DNA of 32,304 nt from an uncultured Alphaproteobacteria bacterium (GTDB taxonomy: Bacteria; Pseudomonadota; Alphaproteobacteria; HIMB59; GCA-002718135): positions 1 through 32,304 of the forward strand of contig CACDMT010000015.1 of assembly GCA_902553945.1 (NCBI GenBank). The letters run 5' to 3'. Shown in pieces: positions 2,257 to 23,413 of the stretch (position 1 is the first letter of the stretch; every line of letters starts with the position of its first letter). Position numbers and translations under genes: made by a program. The notes under the pieces were generated by a model. The model worked only from the letters and a program-made list of their open reading frames with translations. It was not told the origin of the DNA and ran no database searches.

Positions 2257-2553
2257 CTAAGAAAACATAATCTGTGAGAGTTTTTTTCTATAGACAATTG
2301 TATATTCATTAGTATTACCAAGTACATCAAAAAATTCTAACATTTTTATTTTTATCTTATCTTTGTTTTTTGGATAATTTTTTAATAATAACTCCATACA
2401 ACTTTCATAATCTTGAATAGAGAAATATTTATCAGATACCTCTAATATTAAATTAATATCATTTGGCTTTTTTTCTAATTTATTAATCAAGTCATCAATA
2501 TTTGGTCCTGATAAATTTTTTTTAATAATATCTAATTTTTTTATTAATTTTTT
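2257..2553 (-). CDS. cnoX: CnoX/YbbN C-terminal TPR segment, out of frame with the N-terminal part
   Basis: This is the C-terminal part of the CnoX/YbbN thioredoxin-TPR protein, in a different frame from the thioredoxin part. The frame is open on the minus strand from 2553 to the TAG at 2257-2259. It begins within the poly-A tracts and continues LDIIKKNLSGPNIDDLINKL, then two TPR-like helix pairs and a closing NEYTIVYRKKLSQIMF, which matches the usual YbbN ending of the type (EYRRRLASLLF). No good ATG of its own is visible; the best internal start is a TTG at 2490. It is best read as the tail of the upstream thioredoxin gene, reached by a one-base frame change (see findings). If the frame is restored, the whole protein is 288 residues, close to E. 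coli CnoX (about 284). Confidence 0.72.
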   Translation of the reverse strand, partial: KKLIKKLDIIKKNLSGPNIDDLINKLEKKPNDINLILEVSDKYFSIQDYESCMELLLKNYPKNKDKIKIKMLEFFDVLGNTNEYTIVYRKKLSQIMFS

Positions 2554-3124
2554 TTATTTCATCTTTTTCTTTAACTTCTTTTTCTAAAGAACTAATGAAC
2601 GTATCAAATTCTTCAAATTGCCTTAGTTCAATAAGACATTCTAAATAAAGCTCTAATGCTCTTATTTCTTCGGGATTGTTAGCAATAAACTCAAGTAATA
2701 AATCTTTATTTTCCTCAAATTTATTTTCAGACATTCCAATTTTTATTTGTTCATAAAATTCAGTGAAATCTTCATTTATTTTTGAACCTAAACATTTTTC
2801 AACAAAATCGATAATTTGTTTTTCTGGAAGAACACCCTGAAAAGCATTAACTATTTGTTTATTTTTAAAAGCATAAACAGTTGGTATTGATTGTATTCTT
2901 AGTTGAGCGGCAATTTGCTGGTTATCATCTATGTTAATTTTTACCAATGTTACTTTGTCTCCACATTGTATAATAATCTTTTCTAATAGAGGTGTTAATT
3001 GTTTACAAGGACCACACCAAGGTGCCCAAAAATCAACAACAATTAATTTATTTTGACTGGCTTCAACGACCTTATCATTAAAATCAACCTCATTAACATC
3101 AATTATATTGTTATTTTCATTCAT
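2522..3124 (-). CDS. cnoX: CnoX/YbbN-like thioredoxin-fold co-chaperone (N-terminal part; frameshifted at its 3' end)
   Basis: This is a thioredoxin-like chaperone/holdase of the CnoX (YbbN) family, cytoplasmic, which protects oxidised clients and hands them to GroEL or DnaK in characterised members. The thioredoxin domain covers residues 8-110 with the active-site motif WAPWCGPCKQL. Both cysteines (C37, C40) are present and so is the cis-proline region IQSIPTVYAF. Alpha-helical TPR-type sequence follows from about residue 115. As read, the frame ends early at residue 200 (KKINKKIRYY). The missing C-terminal repeats are encoded immediately downstream in another frame. I chose the ATG at 3124 rather than the TTG at 3133; it overlaps the ProX stop by 8 bases (ATGAATGA). 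The gene lies between ProX and the LON-domain gene. Confidence 0.85.
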   Translation of the reverse strand: MNENNNIIDVNEVDFNDKVVEASQNKLIVVDFWAPWCGPCKQLTPLLEKIIIQCGDKVTLVKINIDDNQQIAAQLRIQSIPTVYAFKNKQIVNAFQGVLPEKQIIDFVEKCLGSKINEDFTEFYEQIKIGMSENKFEENKDLLLEFIANNPEEIRALELYLECLIELRQFEEFDTFISSLEKEVKEKDEIKKINKKIRYY

Positions 3125-3632
3125 AAATATCAACTACACTATAAGTGTCCAAAGAAAAAATATTAATTTTTTTTTTATTTTCAAGAATAAAACCAATAAA
3201 CTCTTTAGTTTTTATTGTTATGGTAGTTGTATTAATAAGTGGGTGGAAATTAACTACATTACTTCTCGCAAGTTTTTCATCTAAATAAAAAGAAACTTCA
3301 TTTTTTTTATCATTTAAAAGGGAGTATGGTGAAACAGATCCAGGCCTAATACCTAAGTATTTTTGTAAATATATCTCATTTGCAAATGAAAGGTTCTTGG
3401 CATCAATTGATTTAGAGAAACGTTTTAGATCAATTTGAGCATTTTCATCACAGCTAAAAAGAAAAAATTTATTTTTTTTATTTTTTAAAAATAAGTTTTT
3501 TGTATGTGACCCATCAATTTCTCCCCTTAATTTTTCCGAGTCTTCTACGGTAAACAATGGTTTGTGATCATGAATTTGAAAATCTAGACCTTTTGCTCTA
3601 AGTAATTCTAATAAATCTGATTTTGACAACAT
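3117..3632 (-). CDS. ProX/YbaK-family prolyl-tRNA editing deacylase
   Basis: This 171-residue free-standing editing domain belongs to the INS/YbaK superfamily, ProX-like subgroup (ProXp-ala), which hydrolyses mischarged Ala-tRNA(Pro) in trans. Visible family motifs are FTVEDSEKLRGEIDGSHTKN with the conserved lysine in KNLFLKNKKNKFFLF, the loop GIRPGSVSPYSLLND, and the FHPLINTTTITIK segment near the C-terminus. The length matches the single-domain family (about 165-175). It is the first gene of a leftward operon and its stop overlaps the CnoX start. It diverges from crtI with 57 bp between the starts. Specificity (Ala-, Cys- or other mis-tRNA) is inferred from subgroup resemblance only. Confidence 0.83.
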   Translation of the reverse strand: MLSKSDLLELLRAKGLDFQIHDHKPLFTVEDSEKLRGEIDGSHTKNLFLKNKKNKFFLFSCDENAQIDLKRFSKSIDAKNLSFANEIYLQKYLGIRPGSVSPYSLLNDKKNEVSFYLDEKLARSNVVNFHPLINTTTITIKTKEFIGFILENKKKINIFSLDTYSVVDIYE

Positions 3633-3689: not shown

Positions 3690-5168
3690 ATGAATAAAAA
3701 AGCAATAGTAATTGGTAGTGGTTTTGGGGGAATAGCTGTTAGCTTAAGATTAAAAAAGCTAGGTTTTGATACAACAATTATTGAAAAACTTAATGACATA
3801 GGTGGAAGAGCGAGAGTTTTTGAAATTAATGGATTTAAACATGATGCAGGCCCAACAGTTATAACTGCACCTTTTTTATTTGATGAATTGTTTGATTTAT
3901 TTAACAAAAAAAGAAGTGATCATTTAAATTTTGTATCATTAGAGCCTTGGTATAGATATTATTTTCATGATGGTAAAACTTTTGATTATTCCTCTACTAT
4001 TGAAAAAACAAATAATGAAATAAATAAATTTAATAAAAAAGATGTTGATGGGTATTCAAAATTATTAGAACAATCAAAAAAAATTTTTGATATTGGATTT
4101 ACAAAGCTTGGAGATCAGCCTTTTTTATCTTTTTTTAAAATGCTTGTTTTGATTCCAAGTTTAATTAAATTAAAAAGTTACTTGACTGTTTCACAACTTG
4201 TAAATAAGTATTTAAAAAACCCATATCTAAGAAAAGCATTTTCCATTCATCCACTTTTAGTTGGTGGCGATCCTCACACAACAACTTCAATTTATTTACT
4301 TATTCATTATTTAGAGAGAAAATGGGGAGTTTATTTTTGTATGGGGGGCACTGGTAAAATTGTATCTGAGTTAAAAAAATTAATGATTGAAAATGATATC
4401 AAAATTAAAACAAACACTAATGTAAAAAAACTTATTGTTGAAAATAACAAAATTATAAACATAGTAACAGATAACGAAAATATAACAGATTTTGATCTTG
4501 TTGTTTGTAATGCAGACCCACCAACAGTTTATTCTGAGATGCTTAAAAATTTTAACCTTAGAAGGCCATTTAGAAATCCAAAAAAATTACAATACTCAAT
4601 GGGTTTGTTTGTGCTTTTTTTCGGCACTAAAAAAAAATATGACAATGTTGCACACCACACTATTTGGATGACTGAAAGATTTAAATTTTTGTTAAATGAT
4701 ATTTTTAAAAAAAAAATATTACCAAAAGACTTTTCTTTATATATTCACCGACCTACTGCAACAGATAAATCTTTTGCACCAGAGGGTTGCGACAGTTATT
4801 ATGTATTATGCCCTGTTCCTAATTTACTAGGAAAAATTGATTGGGACAAAGAATCAAATAAATTAAAAGATAGAATTATAAATGAATTATCACGAACAAT
4901 AATGCCTGGCTTAGAAAATAAAATAACGAATGCATTTTGGATGAGCCCAAAAGATTTTAAAAATGATTATAGATCAATGCATGGATCTGGCTTTTCTATT
5001 GCACCTATTTTTTCTCAATCAGCTTGGTTCAGATATCACAATAAAGATAGTAAAATTAATAACCTTTATTTTTCTGCCGCAGGCTCTCATCCTGGTGCGG
5101 GAATACCAGGAGTTCTTTCTTCAGCGAAAGTTGTTGAAAAAATTATTAAAGATGATTTTAAATTATAA
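3690..5168 (+). CDS. crtI: Phytoene desaturase CrtI
   Basis: This FAD-dependent desaturase/isomerase introduces four double bonds into phytoene to give lycopene. The 492-residue length is normal for bacterial CrtI. The N-terminus carries the dinucleotide-binding fold IVIGSGFGGIAVSLRLKKLG followed by GGRARVFEINGFKHDAGPTV. The C-terminus has the hallmark SAAGSHPGAGIPGVLSSAK. Other family landmarks are HPLLVGGDPHTTTSIYLL and the GVYFCMGGTGKIV block. It is the first gene of a tight carotenoid operon and its TAA overlaps the crtB ATG (TAATG). Desaturation number (three-step neurosporene versus four-step lycopene) cannot be told from sequence, but the downstream CrtY and Blh imply lycopene. Confidence 0.93.
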   Translation: MNKKAIVIGSGFGGIAVSLRLKKLGFDTTIIEKLNDIGGRARVFEINGFKHDAGPTVITAPFLFDELFDLFNKKRSDHLNFVSLEPWYRYYFHDGKTFDYSSTIEKTNNEINKFNKKDVDGYSKLLEQSKKIFDIGFTKLGDQPFLSFFKMLVLIPSLIKLKSYLTVSQLVNKYLKNPYLRKAFSIHPLLVGGDPHTTTSIYLLIHYLERKWGVYFCMGGTGKIVSELKKLMIENDIKIKTNTNVKKLIVENNKIINIVTDNENITDFDLVVCNADPPTVYSEMLKNFNLRRPFRNPKKLQYSMGLFVLFFGTKKKYDNVAHHTIWMTERFKFLLNDIFKKKILPKDFSLYIHRPTATDKSFAPEGCDSYYVLCPVPNLLGKIDWDKESNKLKDRIINELSRTIMPGLENKITNAFWMSPKDFKNDYRSMHGSGFSIAPIFSQSAWFRYHNKDSKINNLYFSAAGSHPGAGIPGVLSSAKVVEKIIKDDFKL

Positions 5169-6049
5169 TGCACAATATAAAATTTAATTCTTTAGATGAC
5201 TTAAAAAAAGAAGGTAAAAGTTTTTACTGGGCCAGTTTTTTTCTACCAAGAAATTTGAGAAACAATGTTGCAACTTTATATTCTATATGTAGAAATTTTG
5301 ATAATATCGCAGATAATGATGATAAGGATAGATCTAAAAAATTACAAATCTTAATTAATGAAATTAAGGCAAACAAAAACAACAAAATAAATAAATTTTT
5401 TACAGAAAATAAAATTGAAATCTCCATATTAGAAGATTTAGTTCAAGGCTTAATTTTAGATCAATCTTTAATTAGAATACAAAATGAGAAAGAACTAGTA
5501 ACGTATTCTTATAAAGTTGCAGGAACAGTTGGTTTAATGATGTCAAAAGTAATAGGTATAACAAATAACCAATCTAATTCTAGTGCCATAGACTTAGGAA
5601 TAGCAATGCAAATGACGAATATTGCAAGAGATATATTTGAGGATGCTAATATGAATAGGATTTATATTCCTTTGGATTGGATAAAAAACATAGATATAAA
5701 TCTTCTAAAAAATGAAAATAAAATATCATATGAACAAGAAGTTATTATTTCTAATGCAATATTTAGACTATTAGAATTATCAGAAAAATTTTATTTAAAT
5801 GGATTTGCTGGAATGAAATATATTCCCTTAAGACCAAGATTATCAATATTTATCGCTGCAAAAATATATAGGGGAATTGGTTTAAAAATTAGAAGAAGAG
5901 GAAAAAAATATAATAGGCAGAGAATATATTTAAATATTTTTGAAAAAATATTAATTACTTTTCAGTCATTTTTAACTTTTATATTTCTAACTGCTTTTAG
6001 TTATAAATATATTAAATTAAGAGACACTTTACCCAATGAAAATCTATAA
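5168..6049 (+). CDS. crtB: Phytoene synthase CrtB
   Basis: This is a squalene/phytoene synthase family enzyme that condenses two geranylgeranyl-PP to phytoene. The 293-residue product has the first aspartate motif in CRNFDNIADNDD (D45 and D49 hold the DxxxD spacing, though the usual second Asp is Asn46). The second metal-binding motif is in NIARDIFEDANMNRIYIP (D155, E158, D159). GTVGLMMSKVIG and ALDLGIAMQMTN-like helices match the family. A hydrophobic C-terminal tail (about residues 258-280) suggests membrane association. It starts on the crtI stop codon and its 3' end overlaps crtY by 14 bases, so all are translated from one message. No geranylgeranyl-PP synthase (crtE) is in the window. 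Confidence 0.92.
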   Translation: MHNIKFNSLDDLKKEGKSFYWASFFLPRNLRNNVATLYSICRNFDNIADNDDKDRSKKLQILINEIKANKNNKINKFFTENKIEISILEDLVQGLILDQSLIRIQNEKELVTYSYKVAGTVGLMMSKVIGITNNQSNSSAIDLGIAMQMTNIARDIFEDANMNRIYIPLDWIKNIDINLLKNENKISYEQEVIISNAIFRLLELSEKFYLNGFAGMKYIPLRPRLSIFIAAKIYRGIGLKIRRRGKKYNRQRIYLNIFEKILITFQSFLTFIFLTAFSYKYIKLRDTLPNENL

Positions 6050-16411: not shown

Positions 16412-16560
16412 ACTTTTTCTTTAAAATATTTTTCAACTAACTTTATTGTTTTAAAAATACGCTTTTGATATTTACTATAGTTTTTCCTACCACTTGCAAT
16501 TTGAGGATGCTTTTTAATTAAAAAATTTATATATCCTGGTGTTTTATTATCTATATTCAA
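16408..16560 (-). CDS. Possible small protein (50 aa) coupled to purH
   Basis: A minus-strand frame starting at the TTG at 16558-16560, which overlaps the purH stop (CATTGA), runs 50 codons to a TAA at 16408-16410. The product begins LNIDNKTPGYINFLIKKHPQ and ends LVEKYFKEKV, and is lysine-rich and helical. An in-frame stop lies two codons upstream, so TTG is the only reasonable start. The frame ends four bases into the 3' end of the convergent sulfotransferase. It fills exactly the gap between purH and that gene, which favours a real gene in such a compact genome, but there is no recognised family and no ATG. It could be a remnant of a longer protein. Confidence 0.4.
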   Translation of the reverse strand: MNIDNKTPGYINFLIKKHPQIASGRKNYSKYQKRIFKTIKLVEKYFKEKV

Positions 16561-18068
16561 TGTTTAAACAGTCTATTTTTAGTAAAATATAAAATGATTT
16601 TATTTTTTATACAATAATTAATTATTTTTTTATCATTAATTGAGCCAGATGGTTTTACAATAGCAATACATGAATTTTTATTTAAGATTTTAACACTATC
16701 AGTAAATGGGAAAAAACCATCCGATCCACAAACAAAATTTTTTATTTCAAAATTTTCTTTTGAATTTTTTAAAGCGATATTTAATGAGTCAACACGGTTA
16801 GTCTGACCAGCTCCTATCCCAATAGTTTGTTGATCCTTAACTAAAACAATTGCATTAGATTTTAAATGTTTAACAACTTTAATACAAAAAAGTAAATCTT
16901 CATATATTTTTTTCGAAATAGGCATTGTGGTTATTGGCTTAATAAAATTTTTATTTATTTTATCTAAATCCTTGTCTTGATATAAAGTGCCAAATATAGT
17001 TGACCTAAATTGTCTTTTTATTTTTATTTGATTATCAATTTTTAAAATTATTAAATTCTTTTTTTGTTTTAAAATTTCTAAAGTTTTTTTGTTATAATTT
17101 GGCGATACAATTACCTCAAAAAAATAACGGTTTATTTTTTTTGCAAGCTTTTCAGTAATTTTTTTATTTAATAAAACTATACCTCCAAAAGCACTTTTAC
17201 TATCAGATTTATATGCCTTATTAAACGCTTGTTCAATTGTGTTAGCTGAAGCAACCCCACATGGATTTGTATGTTTTATAATTACACAAGTTGGTGTATC
17301 AAATTCACTTAAGCAAGAAAGTCCACTATCAACATCAATAATATTGTTATAACTTATTGGTTTGCCATTTAGTTGCTTATTAAAAATATTTATAGATTTG
17401 TTATTTGTTATATATGATTTTTGATTTGGATTTTCTCCATATCTTAGATAATTTTGATTTTTAGCACTTTCTATATTAAACCAATTAGAAATTATATTAT
17501 CATATGCACTGGTTTTTTTAAAAGTTTTTAATGCCATTTTTTTTCTAAAATTTAAATCAGTTTTACCAAAATTTTTATTCATATTTATTATAAGTTTGGA
17601 ATAATCATTTATTTCAGAAATAGTTGTGATAAATTTAAAGTTTTTACTTGCTGCTCTTAACAAAGATGGGCCTCCAATATCTATCATTTCTATAATTTTA
17701 TTTTCATCTTTGCTTTTCTTTATTATATTTTGAAATGGGTATAAATTAACAATAATTAAGTCTATATCTATAACTTTTAAATTATTTATTTCATTTATAT
17801 CCTTTTGATTATCTCTTTTAAACAATAGCGAAGCATATATTTTAGGATGTAATGATTTAACTCTTCCACTTAAAATTTCTTTAAATTTTGTAATTTTATT
17901 TATATCTGTAGAACTATATCCTAGTTCTTTAATTTTTTTTGATGTTCCTCCAGTAGATATAAAACTGTATCCAAATTTAGTTAAGTTTTTACATAAATAA
18001 GATAATCTTTTTTTATCGTACACAGATATTAAAGCATATCTAGTTTTTAAATTTTTTGTATTGACCAT
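16557..18068 (-). CDS. purH: Bifunctional AICAR transformylase/IMP cyclohydrolase PurH
   Basis: PurH carries out the last two steps of de novo purine synthesis: formylation of AICAR with 10-formyl-THF and ring closure to IMP, in the cytosol. The 503-residue product has the cyclohydrolase (MGS-like) domain first, with FISTGGTSKKI and SGRVKSLHPKIYASLLF. The transformylase domain follows, with YLRYGENPNQ, the catalytic IIKHTNPCGVASA, AFGGIVLLN, IGAGQTNRVDS and GSDGFFPFTDSV. Length and motifs are complete. The start (ATG at 18068) lies 22 bases inside the end of the heparinase-like gene. The order rsmB, heparinase-like, purH is widespread in Alphaproteobacteria, so this is an ancestral operon. 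Confidence 0.95.
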   Translation of the reverse strand: MVNTKNLKTRYALISVYDKKRLSYLCKNLTKFGYSFISTGGTSKKIKELGYSSTDINKITKFKEILSGRVKSLHPKIYASLLFKRDNQKDINEINNLKVIDIDLIIVNLYPFQNIIKKSKDENKIIEMIDIGGPSLLRAASKNFKFITTISEINDYSKLIINMNKNFGKTDLNFRKKMALKTFKKTSAYDNIISNWFNIESAKNQNYLRYGENPNQKSYITNNKSINIFNKQLNGKPISYNNIIDVDSGLSCLSEFDTPTCVIIKHTNPCGVASANTIEQAFNKAYKSDSKSAFGGIVLLNKKITEKLAKKINRYFFEVIVSPNYNKKTLEILKQKKNLIILKIDNQIKIKRQFRSTIFGTLYQDKDLDKINKNFIKPITTMPISKKIYEDLLFCIKVVKHLKSNAIVLVKDQQTIGIGAGQTNRVDSLNIALKNSKENFEIKNFVCGSDGFFPFTDSVKILNKNSCIAIVKPSGSINDKKIINYCIKNKIILYFTKNRLFKH

Positions 18069-20936: not shown

Positions 20937-21488
20937 ATGAGAGGAAATCTTGAAACAATAGTTGGTGCGATGTTTGCTGGTAAAACTAGTGAATTGCTAA
21001 AAAGGATATTATGGGCAAAGCATCAAAATAAGAAAATTATTGTAATAAAACCAAGTATAGACAACAGGTATTCAAGTCAAAAAATCATTACACATAATGA
21101 TTTAAGTCATGAGTGTTTTGCTATGATAAATTGGAAAGAAACTTTAGAACATTTTTCATTTAAAAAAGATAATACCGACGTAGTCTTTTTAGATGAGATT
21201 CAATTCATGGATACAAATGAAACCCTTTCAAATATTGAAAAAATTTTAAATGAAGGAATAGATGTTGTCTGTGCAGGCCTTGATCAAGACTCAAGAGGAA
21301 GGCCTTGGGAAACATCTTCTATGGTATTGGGTTTATCTGATAAAATTTTAAAGATTTATGGTTTTTGTAATGTTTGCGGAATGGAAGCAACAAAAACTTA
21401 TAGAAAAACTGAAGGAGGAGACAGAACACAAGTGGGTGCAGCAAATATTTATGAGCCCAGATGTCTAAAACATTGGGAGCCAAGATAA
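20937..21488 (+). CDS. tdk: Thymidine kinase (type II)
   Basis: This 183-residue enzyme phosphorylates thymidine to dTMP for salvage. The P-loop is GAMFAGKTSE (residues 10-19). The Walker B/lasso-flanking segment is VVFLDEIQFMD, followed by VVCAGLDQDSRGRPW. The zinc ribbon uses CNVC in the third quarter and CLKH at the C-terminus. The substrate loop KTEGGDRTQVGAANIYEPRC is intact. A weakly SD-like AT-rich leader precedes the ATG. It is a single gene between divergent rsmB and convergent acs, with 2 bases between the last two stops. Confidence 0.94.
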   Translation: MRGNLETIVGAMFAGKTSELLKRILWAKHQNKKIIVIKPSIDNRYSSQKIITHNDLSHECFAMINWKETLEHFSFKKDNTDVVFLDEIQFMDTNETLSNIEKILNEGIDVVCAGLDQDSRGRPWETSSMVLGLSDKILKIYGFCNVCGMEATKTYRKTEGGDRTQVGAANIYEPRCLKHWEPR

Positions 21489-21490
21489 TT

Positions 21491-23413
21491 TTAAATATTC
21501 ATTCTATTCTTTATTAGGTCATCAACAACACTTGGATCTGCTAGAGTAGAGGTATCCCCCAATTTATCAAATTCATTTTCTGCAATTTTTCTCAAAATTC
21601 TTCTCATTATTTTTCCAGATCTTGTTTTTGGTAATCCAGAAGTAATATGAATAAAATCTGGATTAGCAATAGGGCCAATTTTTTCACGTATAGTATTTTT
21701 AAGCTCCTGTATTAATTTACTTGATGACTCTTCCTTGGCGTTTAATGTAACATAACAATATAATCCACTACCTTTTATATCATGAGGATATCCAACTACT
21801 GCTGCTTCAGCAACTTTTGGATGAGAAACAAAAGCACTTTCAATTTCCGCCGTTCCAAGATTATGTCCAGAAACTATAATCACATCATCAACCCTTCCAG
21901 TAATCCAATAATATCCATCTTTGTCTCTCTTACATCCATCTCCAGTAAAATACTTACCATCAAATTGAGAAAAATAAGTTTTAATAAATCTATCATGATC
22001 CCCATAAACAGTTCTCATTTGACCAGGCCAAGATCTCTTCATGCAGAGCATTCCTTCACATTCACCTTTGAGCTCAACACCATTACTATCTACAATACAA
22101 GGCTCAATTCCATAAAAAGGTTTTGTTGCTGAACCTGGTTTTAGTTCAATAGCACCAGTTTGAGGAGAAATTAATATTCCACCAGTCTCTGTTTGCCACC
22201 AAGTATCAACAATTGGACATTTAGAATTTCCTGGAACTTCAAAATACCATTTCCAAGCTTCAGGATTAATCGGCTCTCCAACTGTACCTAATAATTTTAA
22301 TGAATTTCTTCTAGTTTTGTTTACAGGATCATTACCTTCACGCATTAAAGATCTAATTGCTGTTGGTGCGGTATAAAAAATATTAACTTGGTGTTTATCA
22401 ATAATTTCCCAAAACCTAGAAAAATCTGGATAATTAGGAACTCCTTCAAACATTAACGTTGTAGCACCATTTGAAAGTGGACCATAAATTATATAACTAT
22501 GCCCAGTTATCCAACCAATATCAGCAGTACACCAATAAATATCTCCTTCATTATAATTAAATATATATTCATGAGTCATTGATACATAAACAATGTAACC
22601 CCCTGAAGTATGCATTACACCTTTTGGTTTACCAGTAGAGCCTGATGTATATAAAATAAACAAAGGATCCTCAGCACCCATAACTACAGGATCACACTTA
22701 TCATTTACTTTTTCTAAAAGTTCGTCAAAATAAATATCTCTTTTTTTAATTAGATTAATTTTATTACCTGTTCTTTTAACTATTAAACATTTTTTTACAT
22801 CAGGACATATTTCTAATGCTTTGTCAGTTGTTTCTTTTAATGGAATTATTTTACCACCTCTTAACCCCTCATCTGCTGTTACAACAAATTCAGATTTACA
22901 ATCTTGTATTCTTCCTGCAATTGAATCTGCTGAAAATCCTCCAAAAATTATTGAATGAACAGCTCCAATTCTAGCACATGCTAGCATAATATATGCTAGC
23001 TCTGGTATCATTGTTAAATATATTGTAACCCTGTCACCTTTTTTAATACCAGATTCTTTAAGAGCATTTGCAAATTTACATACATTTTTTAATAATTCAG
23101 CGTAGGATATTTTTTTTACATCAGAAGGATCATCGCCCTCCCAAATAATTGCAATTTTATTTGGATTTTTTTCTGCATGTCTATCTATACAATTGTAAGA
23201 AACATTTAGTTCACCATCTTGAAACCAACTTATTTCAACGTTATCTTTTGAATAAGTTACTTCACTAGTTTTAGAAAATTTTTTAATCCAATCGATCCTA
23301 TTAGCTTGTTTTGACCAAAAAGAAGAATTATCATTAATTGATTCATGATAAAGTTTATCATATTCCTCTTTGTTTACTTTAGCTTCTTTTAACCAGTTAT
23401 CATTTATAATCAT
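21491..23413 (-). CDS. acs: Acetyl-CoA synthetase
   Basis: Acs activates acetate with ATP and CoA to acetyl-CoA via acetyl-AMP. From the ATG at 23413 the protein is 640 residues, standard for Acs; an upstream TTG extension ([12 protein letters not shown]) is unlike the family. Motifs include the ACS N-domain [20 protein letters not shown]-binding [47 protein letters not shown] with hinge DDVIIVSGH, and the C-terminal [13 protein letters not shown], whose lysine is the known acetylation site in the family. It would let the cell use acetate from the surrounding water. It appears to form its own transcription unit, downstream of tsaD and the EVE gene in the same direction. Confidence 0.95.

Follow-up and report, generated by a model that had tools for sequence, protein, structure and literature searches.

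The cnoX (ybbN) gene of an uncultured alphaproteobacterium of the HIMB59 lineage is interrupted by a one-base frame change in an A-rich stretch. The break most likely stems from an error of the sequencing workflow or from a private mutation that arose by chance, and not from a regulated frame switch. It is private to one assembly and absent from the relatives that have the gene. The window analysed here is the whole of a 32,304-nucleotide contig (CACDMT010000015.1), part of a 1.15-Mb, 58-contig assembly (GCA_902553945.1) with a completeness of 62.8% and a contamination of 0.1%. The surroundings of the cnoX locus have a G+C content of 24-26%.

On the minus strand, an aminoacyl-tRNA editing-domain gene (3117-3632; PF04073, E 5.6e-28), which overlaps the start of cnoX, is followed by cnoX and then by the gene for a LON substrate-binding-domain protein (1659-2255; PF02190, E 8.3e-33). 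In the list of open reading frames, two carotenoid-like genes adjoin this cluster on the plus strand (3690-6049); we take them to encode the phytoene desaturase CrtI and the synthase CrtB.

The sequence-only reading had described cnoX as split by a single-base frame change, and the minus-strand frames, the stops and the Pfam domains all agree with it. The 5' part starts at the ATG at 3124, carries the thioredoxin domain with a WCGPC motif (PF00085, E 6.4e-28) and runs for 200 codons (2525-3124) to an early TAA at 2524-2522. The C-terminus lies one base further on, in a frame that is shut upstream by the TAA at 2556-2554, begins right after it at 2553 and ends with the TAG at 2259-2257. Its 98 residues match TPR_20 (PF14561, E 6.5e-15), and this second frame is therefore genuine coding sequence. 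Removing one base rejoins the two parts into the 288-residue protein that had been calculated before, a length shared by 18 of the 26 orthologues in the genus. The rejoined gene finishes, as also read earlier, one base ahead of the LON-gene ATG (2255-2253); in the DNA alignment, most same-genus relatives have this ATG one or zero bases after the cnoX stop. The literal product of 200 residues comprises the whole thioredoxin domain, the next region and about seven out-of-frame residues, the last of them IRYY.

The order of the domains, thioredoxin and then TPR_20, is that of CnoX/YbbN (E. coli YbbN, 3QOU; Caulobacter CnoX), and the alignment of 3QOU with an unbroken relative, L014, spans residues 5-285 (E 1.8e-25). 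CnoX/YbbN proteins are described as combining holdase activity with a hand-over to GroEL/DnaK, and the WCGPC motif found here fits the Caulobacter CnoX type and not the SXXC type of E. coli, as these are characterised in PMC6282202. Unlike in these known systems, the break here separates the thioredoxin part from most of the TPR part, so that TPR_20 stands in another frame and not in the same protein as the thioredoxin domain. Judged by its domains, the locus is the cnoX gene, and its literal product would not be a full CnoX.

The two frames are open together for 29 bases (2553-2525), and the frame change must fall there or in the A8 that borders this zone. Three tracts on the coding strand had been named as the region of overlap, an A8 (2548-2555), an A7 (2536-2542) and a second A8 (2516-2523). 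Their coordinates are exact, and the first two reach the zone. The third lies outside it and, because it starts within the stop codon, cannot be the switch point. A MAFFT alignment with 29 relatives, each of which has one base fewer at the junction, assigns the extra base to the AA in TTAAT (2545-2544), and the residues implied by this placement (I or V, then L or I) give the best likeness to the closest relatives. Since the base is aligned between the two long tracts, its exact position in the A-rich stretch is not uniquely resolvable. Three runs of at least seven A within 45 nt are found in 3 of 285 homology-supported genes of this genome; such a cluster is thus uncommon but not unique.

The comparison covered 60 relatives, sampled at one genome per species, with the source species represented by this assembly alone. 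Of these relatives, 47 (26 of the same genus and 21 from another family of the order) have a C-part match, always within an open frame of 251-319 residues, and in all 47 the N- and C-part matches share contig, strand and frame. The other 13 genomes, having no C-part match, are uninformative and were left out of the frame count. Among the 36 other species of the genus, 26 have cnoX, and the remaining ten had at most a short thioredoxin match, which would be unsurprising in incomplete assemblies. The gene is open in all 26 orthologues (besides those of 288 residues, seven have 287 and one, at a contig end, has 251). A split cnoX therefore occurs in 0 of the 47 relatives with a C-part and in 0 of the 26 same-genus orthologues. 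Privacy to one assembly, at this sampling of one genome per species, is what is expected of an assembly or amplification indel. An error, a recent mutation and a slippage that makes two products had all been put forward; the base missing from the relatives fits the error and, equally, the private mutation, and the two-product slippage is not supported. The frameshifted A-tract arrangement is not conserved in any of the 47, and a conserved recoding is rejected.

Identity to the 19 nearest orthologues of the genus (L004-L022) is 70-77% for the 5' part of cnoX and 62-71% for the 3' part. Nei-Gojobori counts were made on the two parts separately. Against the 19 relatives, the C-part has a pN of 0.16-0.20 and a pS of 0.49-0.66. 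Its dN to L022 is 0.178 here versus 0.210-0.257 for the 18 others, and the corresponding N-part values are 0.188 versus 0.193-0.226 for the 17 others of equal length. The mean dN against L004-L020 is 0.205 for the C-part versus 0.135 for the N-part. A three-point estimate with L022 assigns the C-part a dN of 0.073 on this branch versus 0.132 on that of the sister group L004-L020 (N-part, 0.056 versus 0.079), and the C-part excess thus belongs to the L004-L020 branch. By these substitution counts, both halves of cnoX are still under constraint. An old pseudogene, in which constraint downstream of the break would be relaxed, is rejected, as the C-part dN is not raised here. Because the C-part is not accelerated, the break is either very recent or not real.

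Homopolymer frame breaks elsewhere in the genus were surveyed by comparing stretches of five assemblies with one another's predicted proteins. Every open reading frame of at least 100 codons served as a query, so that the codons compared include some antisense frames. The identity cut-offs were 50/40% in the initial round and 55/45% in the five-assembly comparison and a further-locus survey. The initial round and the five-assembly comparison covered parts of each genome, and in the survey as a whole a break that lies in a small gene or close to the end of a gene escapes detection. The source genome has three sporadic breaks in 132,609 codons, all reading as one extra base and all at homopolymers of at least seven or, for cnoX, in the A-rich cluster. 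The second affects a permease, presumably a PotB-like ABC permease, at a T7 run (L187, 11226-11231, contig C9); this gene is open, with no internal stops, in at least 34 relatives (67-100% identity, among the matches listed). The third is caused by a G9 run in a membrane-protein gene, which we take to be PAP2-like (L051, ~6923, contig C20), in a genome of 27% G+C, and this G9 may be a phase-variable tract or another artefact. Runs of at least seven G or C number 5 in 810 kb of the source genome versus 0 in 1.95 Mb of four relatives.

Among the other assemblies, G014 (59% complete) shows one sporadic break in 74,555 codons, at a T7/A7 (L271, ~6013) in a gene that matches L245 13101-14124. In the three assemblies that are 86-89% complete, no sporadic break was found in 330,758 codons (G022, 140,130; G023, 102,109; G019, 88,519). 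The further survey of 48 loci (44,524 codons), with 11 of 59 omitted as repeats of stretches or contigs already included, gave one break, at an A10 run of G005 (65% complete; L013, ~692), in a gene that is presumably CrtI-like. Breaks thus occur in the less complete assemblies (59-65%) and in none of the three more complete ones, a contrast of four events that was picked out once the data were known (0.385^4 = 0.022). The chance of at least three of four breaks landing in the source genome is 0.049, likewise an after-the-fact figure.

Several hits were dropped from this count. A hit in the window (21358-21716) and those in L183 and L053 were judged, on reading of the three frames, to be chance antisense-frame alignments. 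The purH hits in G022, G023 and seven further loci were removed because the split is common to ten genomes. In the window, purH is a single 503-residue gene (16557-18068, minus strand), and it is also open in six other same-genus genomes and in all 15 other-family genomes with a match. It is split in ten same-genus genomes (L067, 16063-17542; L200-L209 examined), at what appears to be, on our assumption, the boundary of its two enzyme domains. The two parts lie on separate contigs in G014, an A7 run stands beside the split in G022, and no match was found in 9 of 41 genomes. Judging by this distribution, the split is probably a gene fission in one clade.

An artefact of a single-cell workflow is favoured, with moderate confidence, over a real slippage mutation. 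On this reading, one additional base in the A-rich stretch, private and not conserved, disrupts the frame of an otherwise ordinary cnoX/ybbN gene, and this base would have arisen in vitro during whole-genome amplification, short-read sequencing or assembly at a homopolymer-rich site. The living cell would then probably produce a normal 288-residue chaperedoxin. We infer the addition in vitro as well as the single-cell origin of the assembly, the latter from its contig number, its completeness and contamination and its relatives. The 13 nearest named relatives all carry AG- names, the style used for the GORG-Tropics single cells (PMC11247762), and look like single-cell assemblies; 4 of the 13 are labelled 'MAG' in the title. 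For the workflow of the same centre, an average of 3.0 indels per 100 kb has been reported from benchmark cultures (PMC6122165, PMC9771814, PMC11247762). The cnoX break resembles such indel errors in being single-base, homopolymer-associated and private, and in occurring at a rate below that average. The published rate predicts about 12 indels in the 398 kb compared, where three breaks were observed, and about 30 in the 992 kb of the three more complete relatives, where none was; it therefore does not transfer simply to these genomes.

A real private loss of frame is the strongest competitor of the artefact, and we hold it to be quite possible, if somewhat short of an even chance. Replication slippage would have added the base in the poly-A cluster in the lineage of this cell, and in the absence of MutS and MutL such indels would be frequent and would persist briefly at a mutation-selection balance. 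Neither mutS (PF00488) nor mutL (PF01119) was detected in any of 41 genomes, 10 of them at least 90% complete, in a search that gave a positive result for 11 of 14 known control genomes, and NucS was found in one of the 41. On this gene content, the lineage seems to be without known post-replicative mismatch repair, and real private slippage mutations are thus expected at some level. When mutS was deleted in two Vibrio species, the rates of single-base indels, most of them in homopolymers, went up 473- and 334-fold (PMC5854121), and the deep-sea SAR11 subclades Ic and IIa.A have likewise been described as lacking mutS and mutL (PMC12374537). In Mycobacterium smegmatis, which is without mutS/mutL, short insertions outnumbered deletions (141 versus 66), and 79% of the small indels fell in simple repeats (PMC4938668). 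The single extra base in each of the three breaks of the source genome, together with its G/C runs, speaks against the artefact and for the mutation, as it could mean a growth of runs in this lineage. On the other side, the more complete relatives, which also have no detectable mutS or mutL, show no break in their 330,758 codons, and the published workflow indel rates would be sufficient alone.

Slippage or recoding of any kind is improbable here, even when all its forms are taken together. Nearly all of this small weight goes to a functional or tolerated transcriptional slippage, itself very unlikely, in which the RNA polymerase would drop a base in some transcripts and thereby allow both a short and a full-length CnoX. 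The genome is AT-rich, an A8 and an A7 stand at the junction, and family-level similarity is kept in both frames. In this respect the locus is like tssM of Citrobacter (A11; PMC4256274) and dnaX of Thermus (A9; PMC1088944), where an A-tract at the junction could give two lengths. An A8 run in human apoB has been reported to yield about a tenth of full-length product, and the products of six pseudogene-like split bacterial genes would be restored by slippage at 9-base runs (both PMC1088944). Unlike in tssM and dnaX, the tracts here are A7 and A8 and not A9-A11, below the minimum of nine used in the bacterial survey of PMC1088944, and the two-frame arrangement occurs in 0 of 47 relatives, whereas a functional slippage would be expected to be conserved. 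The direction is also unfavourable. The tssM slippage adds adenosines (PMC4256274), whereas rescue of the cnoX frame needs a one-base deletion (or a two-base insertion), and transcription of such runs loses bases less often than it adds them. Among the transcription errors of Buchnera, 151 of 157 insertions but only 16 of 57 deletions were located in homopolymers, and the deletion rate in runs also climbed with run length (PMC5574713).

Run counts in the 285 homology-supported genes (263 kb), set against 50 synonymous shuffles, bear on the same point. A7 runs (358 observed versus 303 +- 11 expected) and A8 runs (187 versus 146 +- 9) are over-represented, A9 runs are at expectation (51 versus 49), and only A10 runs are avoided (8 versus 17.8 +- 2.7). 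By the logic of PMC1088944, the lack of avoidance of A8 indicates that transcription in this organism is not seriously disturbed by such a run.

A programmed +1 ribosomal frameshift has the right direction, with a stop codon after the shift, and is nevertheless extremely improbable: the A_AAA_AAA heptamer (2555-2549) favours -1, visual inspection of TAT TAA revealed no prfB-like site, the RNA structure downstream is nothing notable (z = -1.0), and the +1 arrangement is not conserved among the 47 relatives with a C-part. A -1 shift is ruled out by its direction. An independent start of the C-part is unlikely because all candidates (TTG 2490; ATGs 2397, 2343 and 2268) lie inside the TPR_20 match.

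The case shows that, unless relatives or reads are consulted, the disruption of a conserved gene in a single incomplete genome should not be taken for gene loss or recoding. A real break in cnoX would leave the cell with a thioredoxin-only protein of 200 residues and without the TPR half, the part in which chlorination turns E. coli CnoX into a holdase (PMC6282202). Translation of cnoX would then end about 270 bases before the LON gene and would no longer adjoin it. In Caulobacter, a cnoX deletion has been reported to show no effect on growth in heat shock or oxidative stress (PMC6282202), so that a cell could get by with a private loss for some time. Single cells of AT-rich marine bacteria without MutS and MutL may each carry a handful of private poly-A or poly-G frameshifts in ordinary genes, kept at a mutation-selection balance. 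The cnoX break would then be one snapshot of a standing load that becomes visible through single-cell genomes, perhaps softened by weak transcription slippage; this broader picture is a tentative one, and we consider it rather unlikely. Were the break real, it would make frameshift load directly visible in a marine lineage in which MutS/MutL mismatch repair is not detected.
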